Positions 28,074 through 39,364 of a stretch of 64,000 bases of DNA are shown here, piece after piece; position 1 is the stretch's first letter, and each line of letters begins with the position of its first letter. Under the pieces are notes generated by a model that was not told where the DNA came from, made no database searches, and saw only the letters and a program-made list of their open reading frames with translations. A program made the position numbers and the translations under genes. Source of the DNA: Sphingobium chungbukense (GTDB lineage Bacteria; Pseudomonadota; Alphaproteobacteria; Sphingomonadales; Sphingomonadaceae); the NCBI RefSeq assembly GCF_001005725.1, contig NZ_LBIC01000005.1:174001-238000 (forward strand), read 5' to 3'.

Positions 28074-29016
28074 GAACTGGTTCGAGGGGCGGGTGGCGGT
28101 CGTCACTGGCGGAGGCAATGGCATCGGGCGCGCCCACGCGCTGGCGCTGGGGCGGCACGGCGCGAAGGTCGTCGTCAATGATTTGGGCGGCGCCCCCAAT
28201 GGGCAGGGGGCGTCGCACGAGGCGGCCGATGCCGTCGTGGCGGAGATCAGGGCGATGGGCGGGGAGGCGGTCGCCAATCACGATAATGTCGCCGATCCTG
28301 CAACGGGCGCGAAGCTGACCCAGTGCGCGCTCGACCATTATGGCCGGGTGGACGTTGTGATCCCCAGCGCGGGCATCGTCGTCAACAACCGGTTCGAGGA
28401 CATGACCGCCGACGATTTGGACAGGGTGATCGACGTTCATCTGAAGGGCAGTTTCTTCCTTGCCCAGTCGGCATTCCGGCAGATGCGCGCGCAAGGCTAT
28501 GGTCGCTTCGTCTTCACCGGGTCGGGCACGGGCATGTTCGGCCATGGCTGGATGGGCAATTATGCCATGGCGAAGGCGGGAATCGTCGGTCTGTCGCACA
28601 TTGTCGCCATTGAGGGGGCGCCTCATGGCATCGTCTCCAATGTGCTGATGCCCAACGCTTCAAGCCGGGTTGGCGTCGCCATGGGCAGCGGCTTCCGGGA
28701 ACTGCCTGCTTTCGCGGCAAGCATGGACCGCATTGATTTCGCAGCCAATCGGAAGGGCGATCCGGGCTATAGCGCGGCGCTGGCGCTTTATCTGGCGAGC
28801 GATCGTTGCGCGCGTACGCGCGGCGTCTTCTCCTATGCCTTCGGGCGCTATGGCGAGGTGCCGCTCGCCGTCAGCAGGGGGTGGCAGGTGGAGGGCGATG
28901 AAATGCCCGGACCCGCCGAGATCGAGAAGCATTGGGACGCGATCTGCCGCCGCGACGAACTGGATGAGCCGGCGGACGTCTATGACGAATATGCGTTGGT
29001 GCTGGGTATCCGATGA
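28063..29016 (+). CDS. Short-chain dehydrogenase (MFE-2-like)
   Basis: 317 residues from the ATG at 28063, which overlaps the previous gene by 11 bases. VAVVTGGGNGIGRAHALALG is followed by NDLGGAPNGQGAS, the insert typical of (3R)-hydroxyacyl-CoA dehydrogenase-type SDRs. Catalytic residues are in VFTGSGTG and YAMAK. The NNAG position reads PSAG. The C-terminal region (VPLAVSRGW, then DEYALVLGIR) resembles that of the SDR at 52787. Third SDR of operon B. Confidence 0.9.
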   Translation: MTVENWFEGRVAVVTGGGNGIGRAHALALGRHGAKVVVNDLGGAPNGQGASHEAADAVVAEIRAMGGEAVANHDNVADPATGAKLTQCALDHYGRVDVVIPSAGIVVNNRFEDMTADDLDRVIDVHLKGSFFLAQSAFRQMRAQGYGRFVFTGSGTGMFGHGWMGNYAMAKAGIVGLSHIVAIEGAPHGIVSNVLMPNASSRVGVAMGSGFRELPAFAASMDRIDFAANRKGDPGYSAALALYLASDRCARTRGVFSYAFGRYGEVPLAVSRGWQVEGDEMPGPAEIEKHWDAICRRDELDEPADVYDEYALVLGIR

Positions 29017-29027
29017 AGGAGCGAAGG

Positions 29028-29927
29028 ATGCGGGAGAGGGATGCGACTGTGCGCTGCGTGCTGGACATCAGGGCGGAATCGGGGGAGACGCCGGTCTGGT
29101 CCGTGGCAGAGCAAAAGCTGTTCTGGGTCGATCAGGAAGCGTGCCGGCTCAATGCCTTCGATCCGGCCAGCGGAATCAATGAAAGCTGGCAGATGCCCGC
29201 CCATGTCAGCAGCTTCGCGCTGCGCGGCGCGGGCGATCCGGTTGTCGTGGCGCTGCGCACCGGGCTGTTCGATTTCGACCGGACCAGCGGCACGCTGGAG
29301 CCCATCGCCGCGCCGCCGCCCTATCGCGTCGAGACGCACCGTTATAATGACGGGCGCTGCGACCGGCAGGGCCGCTATCTGATCGGATCGGTCGACCTTT
29401 CCTTTTTCGAGAGCAAGGTGCCTGGAGGCGCAGCCATCTACCGGCTGGATGGCGCCGGGCTGACCGAGGTGATCCGGGACATCACCTGTAGCAACGGCAT
29501 GGCCTTCAGCCCCGATGGGCGGACCCTGTATCTGGCCGATTCCCCGGCCGGGGTGGTCTATGCGTTCGACTATGACATCGAAACGGGAACGCCTTCCAAC
29601 CGGCGCGTCTTCATAGAGCGGGACCGCGGCGACGGGATTTTCGACGGCGCGGAGGTGGATGCGGAGGGCGGCTATTGGGTGTGCCTGCTGATGAAGGGGG
29701 CTGTGGCGCGCTACACGCCGGACGGCAGGCTGGACCGGGAGATTGCCGTGCCGGTGCTGCAACCCACCAAAATCGCCTTTGGCGGGCCGGATATGGCCAC
29801 GCTTTACCTGACGTCCGCGGCGCATCGGCACCTTCCGGGCGACCAGCCGCTGGGCGAGCAGGCGGGGGGCGTCTTTGCGATCGACACGGGTTTCGGCGGG
29901 ATTGCGGAGCCAAATTATCGCTACTGA
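29028..29927 (+). CDS. SMP-30/gluconolactonase-family lactonase
   Basis: About 299 residues. The ATG at 29028 is favoured by AAGGAG six to ten bases ahead; an ATG at 29013 overlapping the previous stop is the alternative. It is a six-bladed beta-propeller: metal Glu in AESGETPVWS, YNDGRCDRQGRYLIGS, Asn of CSNGMAFSPDGRTLYLAD and the Asp of that blade are the divalent-metal ligands. The family opens sugar-type or other lactones. At the end of an SDR operon it suggests that a dehydrogenase product is a lactone that is then hydrolysed. Confidence 0.9.
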   Translation: MRERDATVRCVLDIRAESGETPVWSVAEQKLFWVDQEACRLNAFDPASGINESWQMPAHVSSFALRGAGDPVVVALRTGLFDFDRTSGTLEPIAAPPPYRVETHRYNDGRCDRQGRYLIGSVDLSFFESKVPGGAAIYRLDGAGLTEVIRDITCSNGMAFSPDGRTLYLADSPAGVVYAFDYDIETGTPSNRRVFIERDRGDGIFDGAEVDAEGGYWVCLLMKGAVARYTPDGRLDREIAVPVLQPTKIAFGGPDMATLYLTSAAHRHLPGDQPLGEQAGGVFAIDTGFGGIAEPNYRY

Positions 29928-29987: not shown

Positions 29988-30545
29988 ATGACGATAATTC
30001 TCGACCCCAGCGCGTCCCTGGCGCACGATATTGCCGATCCCGGCCCCGACGCAGGCGCGCTTGCGGGCAAGAAGATCGCGATCCGCATCGACATGCTGTG
30101 GCGGAGCTGGGACTGGGTCAGCGAAATCTGGGCCGAAGGGCTGCGGGCGGAAGGCGCGGAAGTGACCTTCTGGCGCAGTTGCGGCCGTACCGGCGAGGAA
30201 GGCGTGCAGGCCGACCGTGAATATGGCGCGCTGTTGGAGCGGAGCGACATGGCCATTGTGGGCCTTGGCAATTGCGGGTCCTGCACCAGTTGGACCATCG
30301 CCGACGCGCTGACGGCGGCGGCCACCGGCATACCGACCATTGCCGTGGCGACGGCTCATTTCGAAGGGCTGGCCCATAATCTGGCGAAGCGGGGCGGTCG
30401 ATCGGGCCTGCGCCTGCATATCCTTCCCTATCCACTCGACATTCTACCCAAAGAGCAGGTCCATGACATTGCAAGAAACCACTATCGATCGTTCCTGCGG
30501 AATTTCGGGGTGCGAAGCGGACTGGCTGAGCAGTCGGCGGCATGA
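29988..30545 (+). CDS. UGSC-family protein, cysteine form (CGSC)
   Basis: 185 residues. The signature GNCGSCTSW holds C96-G-S-C99, where the UGSC (seleno)protein family has selenocysteine or cysteine at the first position. Here the codon is TGC, so it is the Cys form. The fold looks like a Rossmann-type alpha/beta domain: KKIAIRIDMLWRSWDWVSE, then DMAIVGLGNCGSC, then PTIAVATAHFEGLAHNL. The CxxC-like pair suggests a redox or thiol-based reaction, but function is not established for the family. It is the first gene of unit C and overlaps the next gene by 83 bases in another frame. Confidence 0.75.
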   Translation: MTIILDPSASLAHDIADPGPDAGALAGKKIAIRIDMLWRSWDWVSEIWAEGLRAEGAEVTFWRSCGRTGEEGVQADREYGALLERSDMAIVGLGNCGSCTSWTIADALTAAATGIPTIAVATAHFEGLAHNLAKRGGRSGLRLHILPYPLDILPKEQVHDIARNHYRSFLRNFGVRSGLAEQSAA

Positions 30546-31563
30546 GGTCGACGACGACATCGTCGCCTTCAACCATTTCGCCATGGCGCAGGGCTGGGGC
30601 GACGGGCTGCCGCTGATCCCGCCGACGCAGGAGCGGGTGCAGGATTTCCTGATCGCCGGCGGGCGCTTTCCCGACGAGCTGATCGCCGTGCTGCCGCCGC
30701 TGCGCGCCGAATGCACGGTCGAGAAGATCGCGATCAACGCCGTCATGGCAGGCTGCACAGGTGATGCCATGCCGCTGCTGTGCGCGGCGATCGCGGCGAT
30801 GGCCGATTCCAAATTCGACCTTGCGGGCCTCAACGCCACCACCGGATCGGTGGTGCCCGCGGTGATCGTCAACGGGCCGATCCGCAACCGGCTGGACATT
30901 CCCTGTCAGGCCGGGTGCCTGGGCGGGGTTGCCGGGCCCGCGGTGGCGATCGGCCGGGCCATCCGCCTGATCATGCGCAATGTGGCGGGCCAGTTGATCG
31001 GTTCGACCTCGCAAAGCGTCTACGGCACGCCGGGACGCGTCGCGGGCATCGTCTTCGGCGAATGGGAGGAACGCTCCCCCTGGACGCCGTTGGCGGAACG
31101 TCGCGGCGTTCCGGGCGATGCCGTCACGGCCTATGGCGCGATGGGCACGGCCAATATCTGCGACGTGGTGGCGAACAGCGCCGACGGTTTCCTCGACATG
31201 ATCGCCAAGTCCATGGCCTATCCGGGGGCGAACGGTTTTCTCCCCTCCTCCGCCTTTGCCGAGACGCTGTGCGTGATCAACCCGATCTGGGCGGAGGTGA
31301 TCGCGAAGGCCTATCCGAAGATCGAGGATGTTCAGGCCTATATCTGGGATAAATGCGCGCTGCCGATCGACTGGTTCCGGCCGGAATATCGCGATCCCAT
31401 CGGGAAGCTGGGCCGGATCAAGCCGGATGGCCGCGTCCATCTGGTGCCCACGCCCGACGACGTGCTGGTGATGGTCGGCGGCGGCGAGGGTGGCCTGCAT
31501 GCCGCCATGATCCATAGCTGGGGCACATGCCTCACCGTCACCAGGCCGGTTTCAGCGCCATGA
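30463..31563 (+). CDS. Partner protein of the CGSC protein, function unknown
   Basis: 366 residues. The ATG at 30463 has GAGCAGG ahead and lies 83 bases inside the previous gene, an unusually long overlap; no later start in frame keeps the conserved opening WGDGLPLIPPTQERV. Other conserved-looking blocks are CTVEKIAINAVMAGCTGDAM, NATTGSVVPAVIVNGPIRN, IGRAIRLIMRNVAGQLIG and GGGEGGLHAAMIHSWG. I recall similar proteins beside or fused with UGSC proteins, so both probably form one enzyme. The Cys of MAGC and of IPCQAGCLGG are candidate functional residues. The stop overlaps the next start. Confidence 0.7.
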   Translation: MTLQETTIDRSCGISGCEADWLSSRRHEVDDDIVAFNHFAMAQGWGDGLPLIPPTQERVQDFLIAGGRFPDELIAVLPPLRAECTVEKIAINAVMAGCTGDAMPLLCAAIAAMADSKFDLAGLNATTGSVVPAVIVNGPIRNRLDIPCQAGCLGGVAGPAVAIGRAIRLIMRNVAGQLIGSTSQSVYGTPGRVAGIVFGEWEERSPWTPLAERRGVPGDAVTAYGAMGTANICDVVANSADGFLDMIAKSMAYPGANGFLPSSAFAETLCVINPIWAEVIAKAYPKIEDVQAYIWDKCALPIDWFRPEYRDPIGKLGRIKPDGRVHLVPTPDDVLVMVGGGEGGLHAAMIHSWGTCLTVTRPVSAP

Positions 31564-33026
31564 GCGGTGACGTGATCATCGGCGAGCGCGTTCGCGCGCG
31601 GGCCGATCTGCTCGACCGGGCGGCGCGGCTGGCGAGCGCGATGGCGGCGGCGGGTGTCGGCCCGGGCGATGCGGTGGCGCTGCTGCTGCGCAACGACTTT
31701 GCGGTGCTGGAAGCCAATCTGGCGGTGCGCAAGCTCGACGCCTATGGCGTGCCCATCAACTGGCACTGGCATGGTGCGGAGATCGGCTATGTGCTGCGCG
31801 ACGCCGCGCCCCGGCTGCTGATCGGCCATGCCGACCTGCTCGACGGCATCGAAGGGGAGATTCCCGACGATCTGCCCGTCGTCGCGCTGGGCGGGAAGGG
31901 CGAGCGTCAGGATTATGACGACTGGATCGCCGCGCATCCGCCCCATGCGGGCGACGGCAACGGCCTTGGTTCCTCCATGGTCTATACGTCGGGCACCACG
32001 GGCAAGCCCAAGGCGGTCAAGCGCCTGCCCGCGACGGGCGAGGAATCCGCGCAGCGCGCGCGGGTCCTGTCCGTCATCCACGACACCGCGCCGGGCAATG
32101 TCGCGCTGGTGACGGGACCGCTTTACCATCTGTTCAGCCAGGCGATCCTGATGGCGACCTTCGGCGCCGGGGGCCGGGTGGTGGTCATGGAGCGCTTCGA
32201 CCCGGAAGAATGCCTTCGCCTGATCGAGAAGCATCGCGTGACCCATAGCGCGCTCGTCCCCACGCTGTTCGTGCGGTTGTTGCGTTTGCCCGAAGAGGTG
32301 AAGGCGCGTTATGATCTTTCCACCCTTCGGCATGTGGTGCATTCCGGTGCGCCCTGCGCGCCCGAAGTCAAAAGGGCCATGCTGAACTGGTGGGGCCCGG
32401 TATTGCATGAAACCTACGGGTCGACCGAGACCGGCGTCGTCACGAAGATCAGTCCTGAGGAATGGCTGGCCCGGCCCGGCAGCGTCGGGCGGCCCGTTCT
32501 GACGGGGGAAGTCCGTATCCGCGGCGAAGACGGCCGGTGGGCAGGTCCGGGACGGACGGGCGACATCTATCTTCGCATTCACGGAACCCCCGACTTCACC
32601 TTTCACGGCGATCCCGAAAAGCGCGCCGCGGTGGAATATGACGGGCTGATCACCTGTGGCGACATAGGATGGCTGGATGAAGACGGCTATCTGTTCCTCT
32701 GCGACCGGCGCGTGGACATGGTGATATCCGGCGGGGTGAATATCTATCCGGCCGAGGTGGAGGCCGCTCTGCTGGAGCATCCGGCGGTGGCCGACTGCGC
32801 CGTGTTCGGCGTGCCCGACCCTGAATTTGGCGAGGCTCTGGTCGCCTATGTCCAGGCCGGCGGGACGCTGGGTCCCGAAGAGATCAAGGCGTTCCTGCGC
32901 GAGCGGATCGCCGGATACAAGGTCCCGCGCCATGTGATCGTGAGCGGTGCGCTGCCGCGCGAGGAGACGGGCAAGATCGTGAAGCGGAGGTTGCGGGAAG
33001 ATTTCCTCGCGGCTGCGCCAGCCTGA
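31560..33026 (+). CDS. AMP-dependent acyl-CoA synthetase/ligase
   Basis: 488 residues, start overlapping the previous stop (ATGA). The phosphate-binding loop MVYTSGTTGKPKAVK lies near 140-154, ETYGSTETGV is the A5 core, the hinge is near CDRRVDMVISGGVNIYPAEVE (shortened here to residues around 395-415) and the C-terminal catalytic Lys is in PREETGKIVKR. The N-terminus is short compared with fatty-acyl-CoA ligases of about 520-550. The family activates a carboxylate as acyl-AMP and transfers it to CoA. In unit C it supplies the CoA thioester that the adjacent CoA transferase could then pass on. Confidence 0.93.
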   Translation: MSGDVIIGERVRARADLLDRAARLASAMAAAGVGPGDAVALLLRNDFAVLEANLAVRKLDAYGVPINWHWHGAEIGYVLRDAAPRLLIGHADLLDGIEGEIPDDLPVVALGGKGERQDYDDWIAAHPPHAGDGNGLGSSMVYTSGTTGKPKAVKRLPATGEESAQRARVLSVIHDTAPGNVALVTGPLYHLFSQAILMATFGAGGRVVVMERFDPEECLRLIEKHRVTHSALVPTLFVRLLRLPEEVKARYDLSTLRHVVHSGAPCAPEVKRAMLNWWGPVLHETYGSTETGVVTKISPEEWLARPGSVGRPVLTGEVRIRGEDGRWAGPGRTGDIYLRIHGTPDFTFHGDPEKRAAVEYDGLITCGDIGWLDEDGYLFLCDRRVDMVISGGVNIYPAEVEAALLEHPAVADCAVFGVPDPEFGEALVAYVQAGGTLGPEEIKAFLRERIAGYKVPRHVIVSGALPREETGKIVKRRLREDFLAAAPA

Positions 33027-33046: not shown

Positions 33047-33874
33047 ATGACCGTAACGGGACAGATCAACTATATCGACCGCAGCGCACCTGCCCCGACC
33101 ACATGGTATGTCGATCCTCCCGCGGGAGTGCCCATCGACAATGTCGTCATCGACGCGCACGACATGACGATCAGGGACCTTCGCGATGACAAGGACGCGC
33201 TTGATCCCGCGACGCTGACGACGGTTCGGTTGACGGACGGTTTCGCTGCGTTCGACGATGATGAAGCGGTGCGCCGCGACCTTGCGCCCGCGATGGCGGC
33301 GGCGGCCCGCGCGTTGCTGTGCGACTGTCTGGTCCTGCCCTGGGACCATGCGGTGCGCCGTCGCCCATCCGGGCCATCCGCCTTTCGCGGATCGGGCACG
33401 CTGCGCCAGCCGCTGCTCCGCGCCCATTGCGATTATACGCCGCGCAGCATCGGTCCGCTGCTGCGGGACAGGCTGGGCGGCAGCGCCGAAGCGCTGGCGG
33501 GGCAACCCTTCATGATCGTCAATTTCTGGCGCGCCATCAGCGGTCCGCTCAGGGACGATCCGCTGGCCATTTGCGCGCCCGAAAGCGTGGCGGCGGAGGA
33601 TCTGGTGCCGATCCGCCACGTCCATGCGCAGGGAGAGAGCGAGATTTATGGCCTGGCCCACAATCCCGCGCATCGCTGGTATTACATGTCGGACATGCAG
33701 CCGGACGAGGCGTTGTTCTTCACCCAATATGATTCGCGCAAACCCGCAACCTCCTGTGCGCCCCACACCGCTTTTTCGCTGCGCAATCCGACAGGGCCGG
33801 TGCCGCCGCGCGAAAGTTTCGAATATCGGCTCATCGTCTTTCCCGACATGACGCCGCAGACAGGAGTGTGTTGA
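33047..33874 (+). CDS. CmcJ/NvfI-family (Fe/2-oxoglutarate oxygenase-like) protein
   Basis: 275 residues. The family pattern is recognisable: an N-terminal sheet (GQINYID), RAHCDYTPRSIGPLLR with a His-x-Asp pair, FMIVNFWRAISGPLRDDPL, WYYMSDMQPDEALFFTQYDS and PHTAFSLRNPTGPVPPRESF, where the second His and Arg lie. Relatives include the cephamycin P8/CmcJ protein and fungal oxygenases of the same fold. The reaction here is probably an oxidation or hydroxylation of an organic substrate, though not every member has proven activity. It sits between the acyl-CoA ligase and CoA transferase. Confidence 0.8.
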   Translation: MTVTGQINYIDRSAPAPTTWYVDPPAGVPIDNVVIDAHDMTIRDLRDDKDALDPATLTTVRLTDGFAAFDDDEAVRRDLAPAMAAAARALLCDCLVLPWDHAVRRRPSGPSAFRGSGTLRQPLLRAHCDYTPRSIGPLLRDRLGGSAEALAGQPFMIVNFWRAISGPLRDDPLAICAPESVAAEDLVPIRHVHAQGESEIYGLAHNPAHRWYYMSDMQPDEALFFTQYDSRKPATSCAPHTAFSLRNPTGPVPPRESFEYRLIVFPDMTPQTGVC

Positions 33875-33877
33875 CGA

Positions 33878-34969
33878 ATGGACGGACAGGGGAGGGGGGG
33901 CATCCCGCCGGGCGCCTTGGCGGGATTGAAGGTCATCGACATGGCGTCGCTCTACGCCGCGCCGCTGGCCGCGACGATCATGGCCGATTTCGGGGCCGAC
34001 GTGCTGAAGATCGAGCCGCCGGAGGGCGATCTGTTCCGCGACAGCAAGATGTGGCCGGTCGTCGCGCGCGGCAAGCGATGCCTGGCGCTCGACTTGCGGT
34101 CGGAAAAAGGGATCGAACGGCTGAAGGCGCTGGTGGCGCAAGCCGACGTGCTGGTGGAAAATTATCCCGCCGCCGTGCTGGCCAAGCGCGGCCTGGGATG
34201 GGATGTCCTCTCCGCGATCAACCCGCGTCTTGTCATGCTGTCCCTATCCTGTTTCGGCGGCACCGGCCCTTATGCGGACCGGCCGGGTTCAGGCACGATT
34301 GGCGAAGGTTTTGGCGGCCTGACCGCGCTGATGGGAACCAGCGACGGGCCGCCGATGCTGCCTTCGGTGGCGTTGGGCGATGCGGTAGGCGCGATGAGCG
34401 CAGTGATCGGCACCCTGTCGGCGCTTTATTGGCGCGACCGCAACGGACGGGGGCAGCAAGTGGACGCCAGCCTCTACGAACCCATCCTCCAGATCGTCGC
34501 CCATGCGGGGCAAAGGTGGGAGCCGGGCCGTTCGCCCGAACGGTGCGGGTCGCGGCTGCCCGGCGTGTTGCGCAATGTCTATCGCACGGCCGATGGTCGT
34601 TATGTCGCCATTTCCGCCAGCACCGCCCGGCACGCCGCTGATCTGGTGGCGCTGGCGGGCGGGGAGGGGGACGATCAGGATGCCCGTGTCGCGGCCTGGA
34701 TCGCCACCGTGCCGCAAGCGGTGCTGATGGAGCAGCTCGTCGCCCGGCGCATTCCGGTGACGCCGGTCAACAGCATCGACGACATGCTGGCGGACCCGCA
34801 TGTAAACGCCCGCGGCAGTCTGGTCCATGTGGCGGATGACGCGCTGGGCGATCTGGCGCTGGCCGCACCCGCGCCGCGCCTGTCGGAGACGCCGGGTCGG
34901 ATCGGTGAAGTGAACCCGCCGCTGGGTACGGATGCGGACGCAGCGCTTGAGCGCTGGACCCAAGGCTGA
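33878..34969 (+). CDS. CaiB/BaiF (family III) CoA transferase
   Basis: 363 residues, 3 bases after the previous stop. VIDMASLYAAPLAATIMADFG, DVLKIEPPEGD, VLVENYPAAVLAKRGLGWD and CFGGTGPYADRPG are family blocks; the Asp of VALGDAVGA is at the position of the catalytic Asp that carries the CoA ester. The family moves CoA between carboxylates and is common in degradation of steroids, bile acids, carnitine and aromatic acids. It is one of two such genes in the window (other at 39740, minus strand), with low resemblance between them. Confidence 0.92.
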   Translation: MDGQGRGGIPPGALAGLKVIDMASLYAAPLAATIMADFGADVLKIEPPEGDLFRDSKMWPVVARGKRCLALDLRSEKGIERLKALVAQADVLVENYPAAVLAKRGLGWDVLSAINPRLVMLSLSCFGGTGPYADRPGSGTIGEGFGGLTALMGTSDGPPMLPSVALGDAVGAMSAVIGTLSALYWRDRNGRGQQVDASLYEPILQIVAHAGQRWEPGRSPERCGSRLPGVLRNVYRTADGRYVAISASTARHAADLVALAGGEGDDQDARVAAWIATVPQAVLMEQLVARRIPVTPVNSIDDMLADPHVNARGSLVHVADDALGDLALAAPAPRLSETPGRIGEVNPPLGTDADAALERWTQG

Positions 34970-34976
34970 CGGCCCC

Positions 34977-35774
34977 ATGCGGATCGCCGCGCATCTTGGC
35001 ATAGCCGATCCTGACGCGCCGTTGCTGGCCGCGACCGCCGGATCGGTCGATCCGGTCGCGCAGATATATTGCGCGGCCGGTCTGGGCTTTGCCGGTATCA
35101 CCGACAATGGTTTGAAGACGCGCGCGCCGGAAGTGCAGCGGCGCATGGGCGCTGCGCTGCGCAGCCATGGGATGGAGATGGGGAGCTTCACCCATAATGT
35201 GCAGGGGATGGAGCCGTCCTTCTTCTGGGGCGCGCCTGTCGCCGACATGGAAATGGCGATGTCGGAGAGCCTGGCGGCTGCGGAGCGCATGGGGGGCGGC
35301 TGCATCAATGCGATCCTGCTGGATTGCGGCGGGCCGCAGGGCGATCAGGTTGCGAGGGCGTCGGAGAATCTCGCTGCCGCGGCCAGGCTTGCTGGGGAGC
35401 GGGGCGTGGCGCTGGCGGTCGAGGCGGTCAGCCGTGCCCGTGTGTCGTTGGCCCTCGTCGAGCGCGTGGCCGACGTTGCCGCTGTCGCGCGGGCGGCCGG
35501 GGTGGGATTGATCCTGGATAGCTGCCATTGCCATTGCGTGGGCGAAGACATGGCAGCGGCGATCGTGGCGCATGCCGACATCCTCTCGGCCGTGCAAATG
35601 GCCGACATGCCTGACCGCGTGCAGCCCGGCGCGGGCGTGATCGACTTTGCGCCGATCATCGCTGCGCTGCGGACAATAGGCTGGCGCGGGCTGGTAGAGG
35701 CGGAACTGATGCCGAAGATGCCGGGCATCAAGGAAGAAGCGGAGGCTGTCGCGGCGCTCAGGGCGCTCGGTTGA
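34977..35774 (+). CDS. TIM-barrel sugar-phosphate isomerase/epimerase-like protein
   Basis: 265 residues of the xylose-isomerase-like/AP-endonuclease-2 barrel. Family blocks are GLGFAGITDNGLKTRAPEVQ, a central ALAVEAVSRARVSLALV with Glu at the first metal position, LILDSCHCHCVG with the Asp/His metal site, AVQMADMPDRVQPGAGVIDF, and WRGLVEAELMP with the last Glu. Members isomerise sugars, hydroxypyruvate or inositol derivatives. The substrate of this one is unknown. Last gene of unit C. Confidence 0.85.
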   Translation: MRIAAHLGIADPDAPLLAATAGSVDPVAQIYCAAGLGFAGITDNGLKTRAPEVQRRMGAALRSHGMEMGSFTHNVQGMEPSFFWGAPVADMEMAMSESLAAAERMGGGCINAILLDCGGPQGDQVARASENLAAAARLAGERGVALAVEAVSRARVSLALVERVADVAAVARAAGVGLILDSCHCHCVGEDMAAAIVAHADILSAVQMADMPDRVQPGAGVIDFAPIIAALRTIGWRGLVEAELMPKMPGIKEEAEAVAALRALG

Positions 35775-38523: not shown

Positions 38524-39364
38524 AGGTCTGTGGACATTTACCGACAAGCGATGAGTGTAGCGATTAGGTTGAGGTTGGCTTTGAAGCTGCCATCGGTTTT
38601 GTCGTATCTGGTTGCGATACCACGAAATTCCTTGATCTTGGCGAAGTAGTTTTCGACGAGGTGGCGCCATTTGTACATTTGGGCGTCGTAGTCGATGCAA
38701 GCTTTGCGATGCTTGCGCGGCGGGATGACGGCTTGCGCCTCTCGTTCGGCGAGTTCCGTGCGTAGCCAATCGGCGTCAAAGGCCTTGTCAGCGAGCAAGG
38801 CGTCGAACGTCAGCCCCTCGATCAACGGCCTGACGCCCATGATATCGTTGCGTTGCCCCGGCATCAGAACAAAACGCACCAGATTGCCCAGCGCATCGAC
38901 CAGAGCCATGATCTTGGTCGTCAGCCCACCCTTCGATCTCCCGATGGCCTGATTGTGAGTCCCCCTTTAGCGCCGGTCGCCTTCTGGTGAACGGAAACAA
39001 TCGTGCCATCGATGAGCGCATATTCCATATCGGGATCGTCCGACACAGCCTCGAAAAGCCGGTCGAACACGCCATCGCGCGCCCAGCGTCGAAACCTGCG
39101 GAAGTTGCTGTTCCAATTGCCAAACCCGGATGGAAGGTCGCGCCACGGCAGACCCGCGCGAACCCGCCAGAATACTGCCTCCAGAAATAAGCGCGTGTCC
39201 GCCGCCGTCACACCACGGTCTGTCACTTTGCCGGGAAGCAACCCCTCAAGTCGTTCCCACATCGCATCACTGATAACAAAACGGTTCGGGTCCATGTTCG
39301 CGCTCCCAAAAGGAGCTTGAATCACTTCTCAGCCAAAAAGAAAATCCCTATTGTCCACAGACCT
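38524..39364 (-). mobile_element. IS5-family (IS427-like) insertion sequence
   Basis: An 841-bp element bounded by perfect 13-bp inverted repeats AGGTCTGTGGACA (38524-38536 and 39352-39364). It is flanked by TA on both sides inside a CTAG target (TA at 38522-38523 and 39365-39366), the duplication expected for the IS427 group. One transposase is encoded on the minus strand through a frameshift. The termini and both reading-frame parts look intact, so it may still be active. Confidence 0.9.
38538..39295 (-). CDS. IS5-family DDE transposase in two frames (programmed -1 frameshift)
   Basis: The first frame starts at the ATG at 39295 (MDPNRFVISDAMWERLEGLL) and runs to 38921. The second frame covers about 38960 to 38538 and ends LNLIATLIACR. 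They join at AAAGGGGGA (complement of 38960-38967), where a -1 slip would restore the family sequence. DDE residues are placed in ALIDGTIVSVHQKATG (first Asp), LLADKAFDADWLR (second Asp) and WRHLVENYFAKIKEFR (Glu). Two frames with a slippery run is the usual IS427-group arrangement, so I regard it as regulated rather than broken. Confidence 0.88.

Follow-up and report, generated by a model that had tools for sequence, protein, structure and literature searches.

A UGSC-family protein and its partner in Sphingobium: a near-obligate gene pair that may form a thioredoxin-coupled enzyme related to the glycine and proline reductases

UGSC proteins are among the commonest selenoproteins in ocean surveys, with 8.2% of selenoprotein genes according to the passage concerned (PMC9402790). 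The passages that deal with UGSC in the literature searched give no function for it, and those that classify it list a protein of thioredoxin-like fold or an unclassified protein. A fusion of UGSC with a domain called Unknown_1 is reported in a passage of the GOS survey (PMC2398784). The closest described systems are glycine reductase (Grd) and proline reductase (Prd), in which the GrdB and PrdB proteins bear selenocysteine (Sec) in a C-terminal domain. Grd is fed by thioredoxin in the excerpted account of PMC13188914. GrdB-like proteins of Synergistota have been proposed, in the part of PMC10838667 that treats them, to act in carbon-fluorine cleavage of fluoroacetate; that system, as described there, has other subunits and belongs to an anaerobic organism. 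A relation between UGSC and GrdB/PrdB is stated nowhere in the passages of the literature searched.

Here we describe a Cys-containing UGSC protein and its partner, P2, encoded in a stretch of 64,000 nucleotides from Sphingobium chungbukense (the window; Table 1). The UGSC gene runs from an ATG at 29988 to a TGA stop at 30543-30545, and its product contains ...GLGNCGSCTSWT..., with the motif NCGSCTS. The protein shares the CGSC motif with the UGSC family (PF24696), and the window form is Cys, not Sec; the codons of C96 and C99 are TGC at 30273-30275 and 30282-30284. All four residues (C96, G97, S98, C99) are invariant in the 21 UGSC sequences of alignment A2 and in the 15 of alignment A5, where Sec members are read as C. 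When coordinates and frames were re-read, they agreed with the initial annotation, which had described a pair with an 83-base overlap and the motif NCGSCTS in UGSC. Its remark that TGC stands at the position of Sec also holds, as many distant members have an in-frame TGA at the first Cys. Against the equivalog NF041046 the protein scores 70.9 bits, under the NCBI cut-off of 125. Matches of UGSC to the PDB by sequence are weak, the best being to 3-oxoacyl-ACP reductase (E 0.0076 and 0.0053). P2 has no Pfam or NCBIfam family up to E 0.1 and no match in a PDB sequence search. In viral contigs no relative was confirmed.

Table 1. Positions of the gene pair, its motifs and the neighbouring genes in the window.
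Feature	Position	Strand	Remarks
SMP-30/gluconolactonase-like gene, upstream	29013..29927	+	PF08450; equivalent position in L002-L005 and L008
UGSC-family gene, Cys form, 185 aa	29988..30545	+	PF24696, 107.4 bits (cut-off 25)
CGSC motif, C96 and C99	30273..30284	+	C96 corresponds to Sec in distant relatives
Overlap of 83 bases, probably dual-coding	30463..30545	+	Third-position diversity lowered in both frames; equal length in 9/21 loci
P2, partner protein, 366 aa	30463..31563	+	ATG at 30463; frame differs from that of UGSC
P2 residues 10-24, RSCGISGCEADWLSS, dithiol arm (CGxxGC)	30490..30534	+	Entirely within the overlap
Acyl-CoA ligase	31560..33026	+	PF00501; downstream in L002-L009
CmcJ/NvfI-family oxidoreductase	33047..33874	+	NF041278, 221.7 bits
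CoA-transferase family III	33878..34969	+	PF02515; present in L002-L009
Xylose-isomerase-like TIM barrel	34932..35774	+	PF01261; matches in L002-L006, L008 and L009

The UGSC-P2 pair is near-obligate. UGSC lies directly upstream of P2 in 20/20 P2 loci from a search of genome contigs, a set selected by similarity to the window P2, and a genome-wide draw was broader. The window's phylum is represented by 398 genomes, of which five have P2 (profile A1) and the same five have UGSC. The phylum of Nocardia is represented by 217, a set centred on a genome that itself carries the pair (G398); P2 (profile A3) was identified in 17 of them and UGSC likewise in 17 (16 of these over cut-off), and 16 genomes have both. 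For the 615 genomes combined, P2 is present in 22, UGSC over cut-off in 21 and both in 21 (Fisher p 4e-38, kinship ignored). Plasmids yielded 24 records with a P2 relative; 18 of these loci were fetched, and UGSC adjoins P2 in 17. The fixed pair proposed in the initial annotation is thus supported by co-occurrence, adjacency and natural fusions. A pattern of P2 mostly without UGSC was looked for and did not appear, the exceptions being G584 and L119.

The first of these, G584, has four P2 matches on a 9.2 kb contig, with P2 reaching both ends. On the Haladaptatus halobius plasmid (L119), no UGSC occurs within 13 kb of P2, even reading through stops; this P2 (5974-6981) lies beside genes for a CoA transferase and a CoA ester lyase. 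P2 also occurs without UGSC in the last 2 kb of a contig (G503:C15:13116). By eye, 21 of the 26 P2 places in genomes of the Nocardia phylum adjoin a UGSC match. UGSC over cut-off without adjacent P2 was found at G447:C612, at a contig end (G503:C23) and as a 60-residue piece (G557:C68); G597 has UGSC at 21.1 bits, below cut-off, and lacks P2. Gene order varies: in L001-L021 (L001 being the locus of the window) UGSC comes before P2, and many Sec loci have the reverse order. One-gene UGSC-P2 fusions are encoded at L085 (573 aa), at L083 (with an in-frame TGA) and on plasmids of Vibrio europaeus (L107), Sporomusa termitida (L113) and Variovorax boronicumulans (L114). By description, the GOS fusion of UGSC and an unknown domain, as given in the passage on it (PMC2398784), resembles these five. 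Genes for aconitase X and a DUF126 protein accompany two of the fusion loci (L107, 3013-4722; L113, 1890-3595). On the haloarchaeal plasmids L110, L111 and L116, two P2 genes flank one UGSC gene.

Across 46 loci, the window's own included, the first motif position is U in 18 and C in 25; L085 has DMGTSS, and no motif could be read in the remaining two, L084 and L078, the latter truncated by a contig end. The pattern U/C-G-x-C is kept in 42 of the 46, or 43 if U-D-G-C of L083 is counted. Of the 14 genomes with a motif TGA, all but G437 encode SelB over cut-off (13/14); the ten with Cys or neither, the window genome among them, encode none. SelB is also present in a 25th genome (G584), which is without UGSC. 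One genome of the Cys form by motif (G277) may have a broken gene, since its UGSC is split over two frames and contains an in-frame TGA away from the motif. In two fusions (L085, 7390-9111; L113, 5287-7044) GDMGTSS replaces CGSC and neither Cys nor Sec remains. Thus, Cys or Sec is not needed in every member, and these fusions warn that some members do other chemistry.

Profile comparison relates the UGSC family, as a distant homologue, to the Sec-bearing C-terminal domain of GrdB/PrdB. The UGSC profile was built from 42 sequences (L002-L021 and 22 distant members; the window's own was left out) and the GRDB profile from nine PF07355 C-terminal domains (L087-L090, L092-L094, L096 and L097). In hhalign the two score 49.3 (E 6.7e-7, probability 92), and the alignment places the UGSC Sec/Cys on the GrdB Sec. 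The match spans a strand, the U/C motif, a helix and the following 'IPT' strand, and the score is still 40-42 when the motif and up to four flanking columns are masked. Controls reached at most 19.3 (100 column shuffles), 18.9 (reversed alignment) and 24.2 (unrelated neighbour clusters); each half of GRDB scores 34.6 and 35.2 against the UGSC profile. The same profile gives 15.4 with AtzD/TrzD and 12.8 with fumarase. The 22 distant, mostly Sec sequences score 54.9 against GRDB, and the 20 near Cys relatives (L002-L021) alone 23.8, about the level of unrelated families. Because the signal comes from the distant members, the window protein is tied to GrdB via its own family.

There are also differences from GrdB/PrdB. 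Pfam does not place UGSC in PF07355: this family is not among the Pfam matches of the window UGSC, and is absent from the eight families found for the 15 members of A5 (E up to 1). Nor does P2 show a relation to GrdE-like sequences; against four GrdB neighbour genes that look GrdE-like, it scores 21.0 (probability 0.6%), at noise level, so we do not claim P2 as a GrdE relative. In the phylum of Nocardia, three loci (L087, L088 and L090) encode a GrdB (PF07355, with Sec, UGTGTRCG); its neighbours there are, by their look, presumably GrdE-like and FabH-like genes. The pair occurs in CoA-linked operons of Sphingobium-type bacteria, which are aerobes, and not in Stickland operons.

In the AlphaFold2 (AF2) model of UGSC (pLDDT 90.2), strands and helices alternate in five beta-alpha units, and the CGSC motif opens the helix that follows strand 3. 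The proteins that match the model best include flavodoxin-like and receiver-like ones (Foldseek E no better than 3e-4; VIA best Z 10.3, 3.3 Å over 131 residues). The five units and the flavodoxin-like matches of the model speak against a thioredoxin fold. The P2 model (pLDDT 82.5) matches class I fumarase with a Foldseek E of 1.8e-4 but a TM of 0.23, and in VIA reaches at most Z 6.0 (3.1 Å, 88 residues), with 7xky_A at Z 5.5 (4.9 Å over 169 residues). These fold matches of the modelled P2 may be chance. As profiles, P2 scores 14.4 with class I fumarase and 18.3 with the cyclic amide hydrolases AtzD/TrzD, both at noise, so neither is claimed as a relative. Six P2 residues (D47, G48, P54, G138, R165 and E200) are invariant in 68/68 rows each, and T127 is kept in 64 of the 68.

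Several relatives of the pair are accompanied by thioredoxin components. The annotated order is P2-UGSC-trxB on a Roseovarius THAF8 plasmid (L105) and trxB-trxA-P2-UGSC on an Arthrobacter ERGS1:01 plasmid (L108). In Variovorax SRS16 (L106) the order is trxB, a transporter gene, an SDR gene, P2 and UGSC, so that trxB is three genes before P2; here UGSC is annotated as hypothetical and was assigned by profile. Elsewhere TrxB lies 2.3 kb from a Trx-P2 fusion (L038), and a divergent TrxB-like frame adjoins a Sec UGSC (L037). At E 1e-20, TrxB-like frames were identified in 10 of 63 loci, six with at least 165 bits (L105, L106, L108, L038, L116 and L120) and four weaker (L037, L114, L115 and L117). 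The background (37 matches in 22 genomes, about 87 Mb) predicts about 0.4 in the 0.889 Mb concerned. The Poisson p of 3e-6 for six loci is rough, since the two thresholds differ, three of the six loci built the profile, and the 37 matches include two beside the pair. In the window genome, no TrxB match was found beside the pair.

Thiol modules are also attached to the proteins themselves. By pattern, 11 of 68 P2 rows have a fused Trx-like CxxC domain; two of these domains were checked by sequence and match a PDB thioredoxin H (L038, E 4e-4) and YkuV (L040, 4e-4). UGSC has a NifU-like domain ahead of it in three loci, namely L015 (E 5.7e-6; 26.8 bits, slightly short of the 27-bit cut-off), L016 (E 0.0012) and L013 (E 0.0028); none was found before UGSC in L019. 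A CxxC upstream of UGSC is present in L013-L016 and absent from the Frankia loci L017-L021, and one is also upstream of the match in L039 and L084. No thiol module was identified in 45 of the 68 P2 rows (NifU-like domains on UGSC not counted). The arm of P2 (Table 1), the Trx domain and the NifU-like CxxC (L013-L016) never occur in one locus; arm and Trx each need one tree change, so there are few independent events and this mutual exclusion is only suggestive. The redox or thiol-dependent role proposed in the initial annotation is likely, given that SelB tracks the TGA form and that Trx, TrxB or NifU-like partners occur in some relatives.

The overlap encodes the first 27 residues of P2. The annotated start of P2 required testing, as the next in-frame ATG (30583) is still upstream of the invariant DGLP, by six residues. 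We calculated mean pairwise diversity at third positions for the nine loci with 83-base overlaps (L001-L009). For the UGSC frame, diversity is 0.091 within the overlap versus 0.458 elsewhere, and the lowest upstream sliding 81-base window gives 0.338. For the P2 frame it is 0.165 within the overlap versus at least 0.279 in the downstream windows tried. Because third-position diversity is lowered in each, both frames look translated and constrained, and we conclude that the two are most likely coding across the overlap. Overlap lengths, taken with the P2 start nearest the UGSC stop in 21 loci, are exactly 83 bases in L001-L009; L010-L021 show overlaps of 4 bases or 1 base, or a gap of 1. The long overlap is therefore a trait of a lineage (9/21 loci) and does not by itself point to a fixed pair, contrary to the initial annotation, given that 12 of the 21 loci share at most 4 bases.

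The CGxxGC arm is present in all 12 of L001-L012 and in none of the other 34 of the 46 tabulated loci; L010-L012 keep it although they are without the long overlap. In a two-protein tree from which overlap-coded columns were removed, L006, L007 and L009 join L010-L012 (support 99/95). The AU test gives p 0.0255 against a single overlap clade, a post hoc value, as the group was named after the first tree was seen. On this branching, the overlap seems to predate the earliest division within the arm clade and to have been lost afterwards, which makes it possible that the arm was born by overprinting of the UGSC 3' end. The reverse order, in which the arm came first and the overlap later through deletion, is weakly disfavoured by the same post hoc test.

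The operon described in the initial annotation is conserved in part. L002-L009 all keep the succession UGSC, P2, ligase, CoA transferase, and the likely ATG of the ligase (31560) overlaps the P2 stop by 4 bases. The TIM-barrel gene is retained in most of these loci; in L006, where just 85 residues align, and in L009 it precedes the pair. The CmcJ-like gene does not belong to the conserved set: elsewhere it occurs only as a 46-residue piece in L002 (8612-8749), no match was found in the L003-L009 stretches, and we rejected it as a core member. The initial annotation also placed the thiol-dependent step ahead of CoA activation, an order for which the analysis gives no support. Raw counts for 45 P2 loci are 16 for CaiB-type CoA transferase, 10 for an acyl-CoA dehydrogenase-like cluster and 9 for acyl-CoA ligase. 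Haloarchaeal loci encode a CoA transferase, a CoA ester lyase, TRAP parts and tandem P2 genes. An annotated phosphosulfolactate synthase lies near the pair in Arthrobacter (L108, 3698-4486) and on a haloarchaeal plasmid (L118, 2847-3314). Further downstream in the window, two adjacent short ORFs on the minus strand (38538-39325) follow a sulfotransferase gene; we take them to be a split IS5-type transposase.

We favour, with a little more confidence than doubt, the reading that UGSC and P2 form a thioredoxin-coupled, GrdB/PrdB-like enzyme of two subunits that acts on an organic acid. UGSC would be a small flavodoxin-like alpha/beta domain, kin of the catalytic Sec domain of GrdB/PrdB, with C96 (Sec in relatives), at the start of the helix right after the central strand, as nucleophile and C99 as resolving thiol. 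P2 would provide the other half of the active site and hold the substrate. The thiolate or selenolate of UGSC would attack a carbon of the P2-held substrate, the product would be released, and the resulting disulfide or Se-S bond would be reduced by NADPH, thioredoxin reductase and thioredoxin, or by a thiol module on either subunit; the N-terminal CGxxGC arm of P2 may be such an attached relay in the window clade. The net reaction would be reductive cleavage of an organic acid or CoA ester within a CoA-linked catabolic operon. Thioredoxin as the electron source fits the account of Grd in the excerpt from PMC13188914. From the comparisons above we infer complex formation in the window strain, the direction of the chemistry, the role of the arm, the substrate class and the reductive cleavage.

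Other readings of the pair differ mainly in what they make of the thiols. A non-redox hydrolase or lyase for cyclic or acyl substrates, in which C96 is a plain nucleophile that thioredoxin only shields from oxidation, would accommodate the Cys-free GDMGTSS fusions, the weak fold signals of the P2 model to class I fumarase and cyclic amide hydrolases, and the amidases near the pair in L075 and L110. We regard it as unlikely, in view of the retention of U/C-G-x-C in nearly all tabulated loci, the recurrence of Trx modules and the noise-level profile scores of P2 with fumarase and AtzD/TrzD. It is more doubtful still that UGSC is a general thiol-disulfide protein, such as a redox chaperone or a peroxidase-like protein, that only travels with catabolic genes. 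The listing of UGSC among proteins of thioredoxin-like fold, in the relevant passages of the surveys (PMC2398784, PMC13188914), would agree with such a role, but the model is flavodoxin-like, and the association of the pair with changing organic-acid transporters, CoA transferases and lyases (raw occurrence) fits a catabolic enzyme better.

The near Cys relatives raise a separate question, namely whether UGSC has become regulatory or structural in the window's clade, with the Sec function lost and the pair itself real. The absence of SelB over cut-off from the window genome, the lack of a TrxB match beside its pair and the weak match of the near members alone to GRDB would suit such a loss, but the invariance of CGSC in both alignments, A2 and A5, argues against it, and we consider it improbable. 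A two-subunit, thioredoxin-coupled enzyme remains our preferred explanation. The wider proposal, which we put forward tentatively and think rather less likely to be right in full than wrong, is that UGSC-P2 may be a third class of Grd/Prd-like reductase, in which the pyruvoyl subunit is replaced by an unrelated partner and which serves aerobic, CoA-linked catabolism with lineage-specific thiol relays; the CGxxGC arm of the window clade would have been born by overprinting the UGSC 3' end and would later have come out of the overlap in the lineage of L010-L012.

In summary, this analysis adds to the initial annotation the match to GrdB, the links to Trx, TrxB and NifU-like proteins, and the CGxxGC arm inside the overlap. 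A dual-coding arm would also give a clear example of overlapping frames in which one encodes a redox module. The fixed partner, with the ties to glycine/proline reductase and to thioredoxin, turns an orphan selenoprotein into a testable two-subunit enzyme, and the Cys pair of the window could be expressed in E. coli without selenium.
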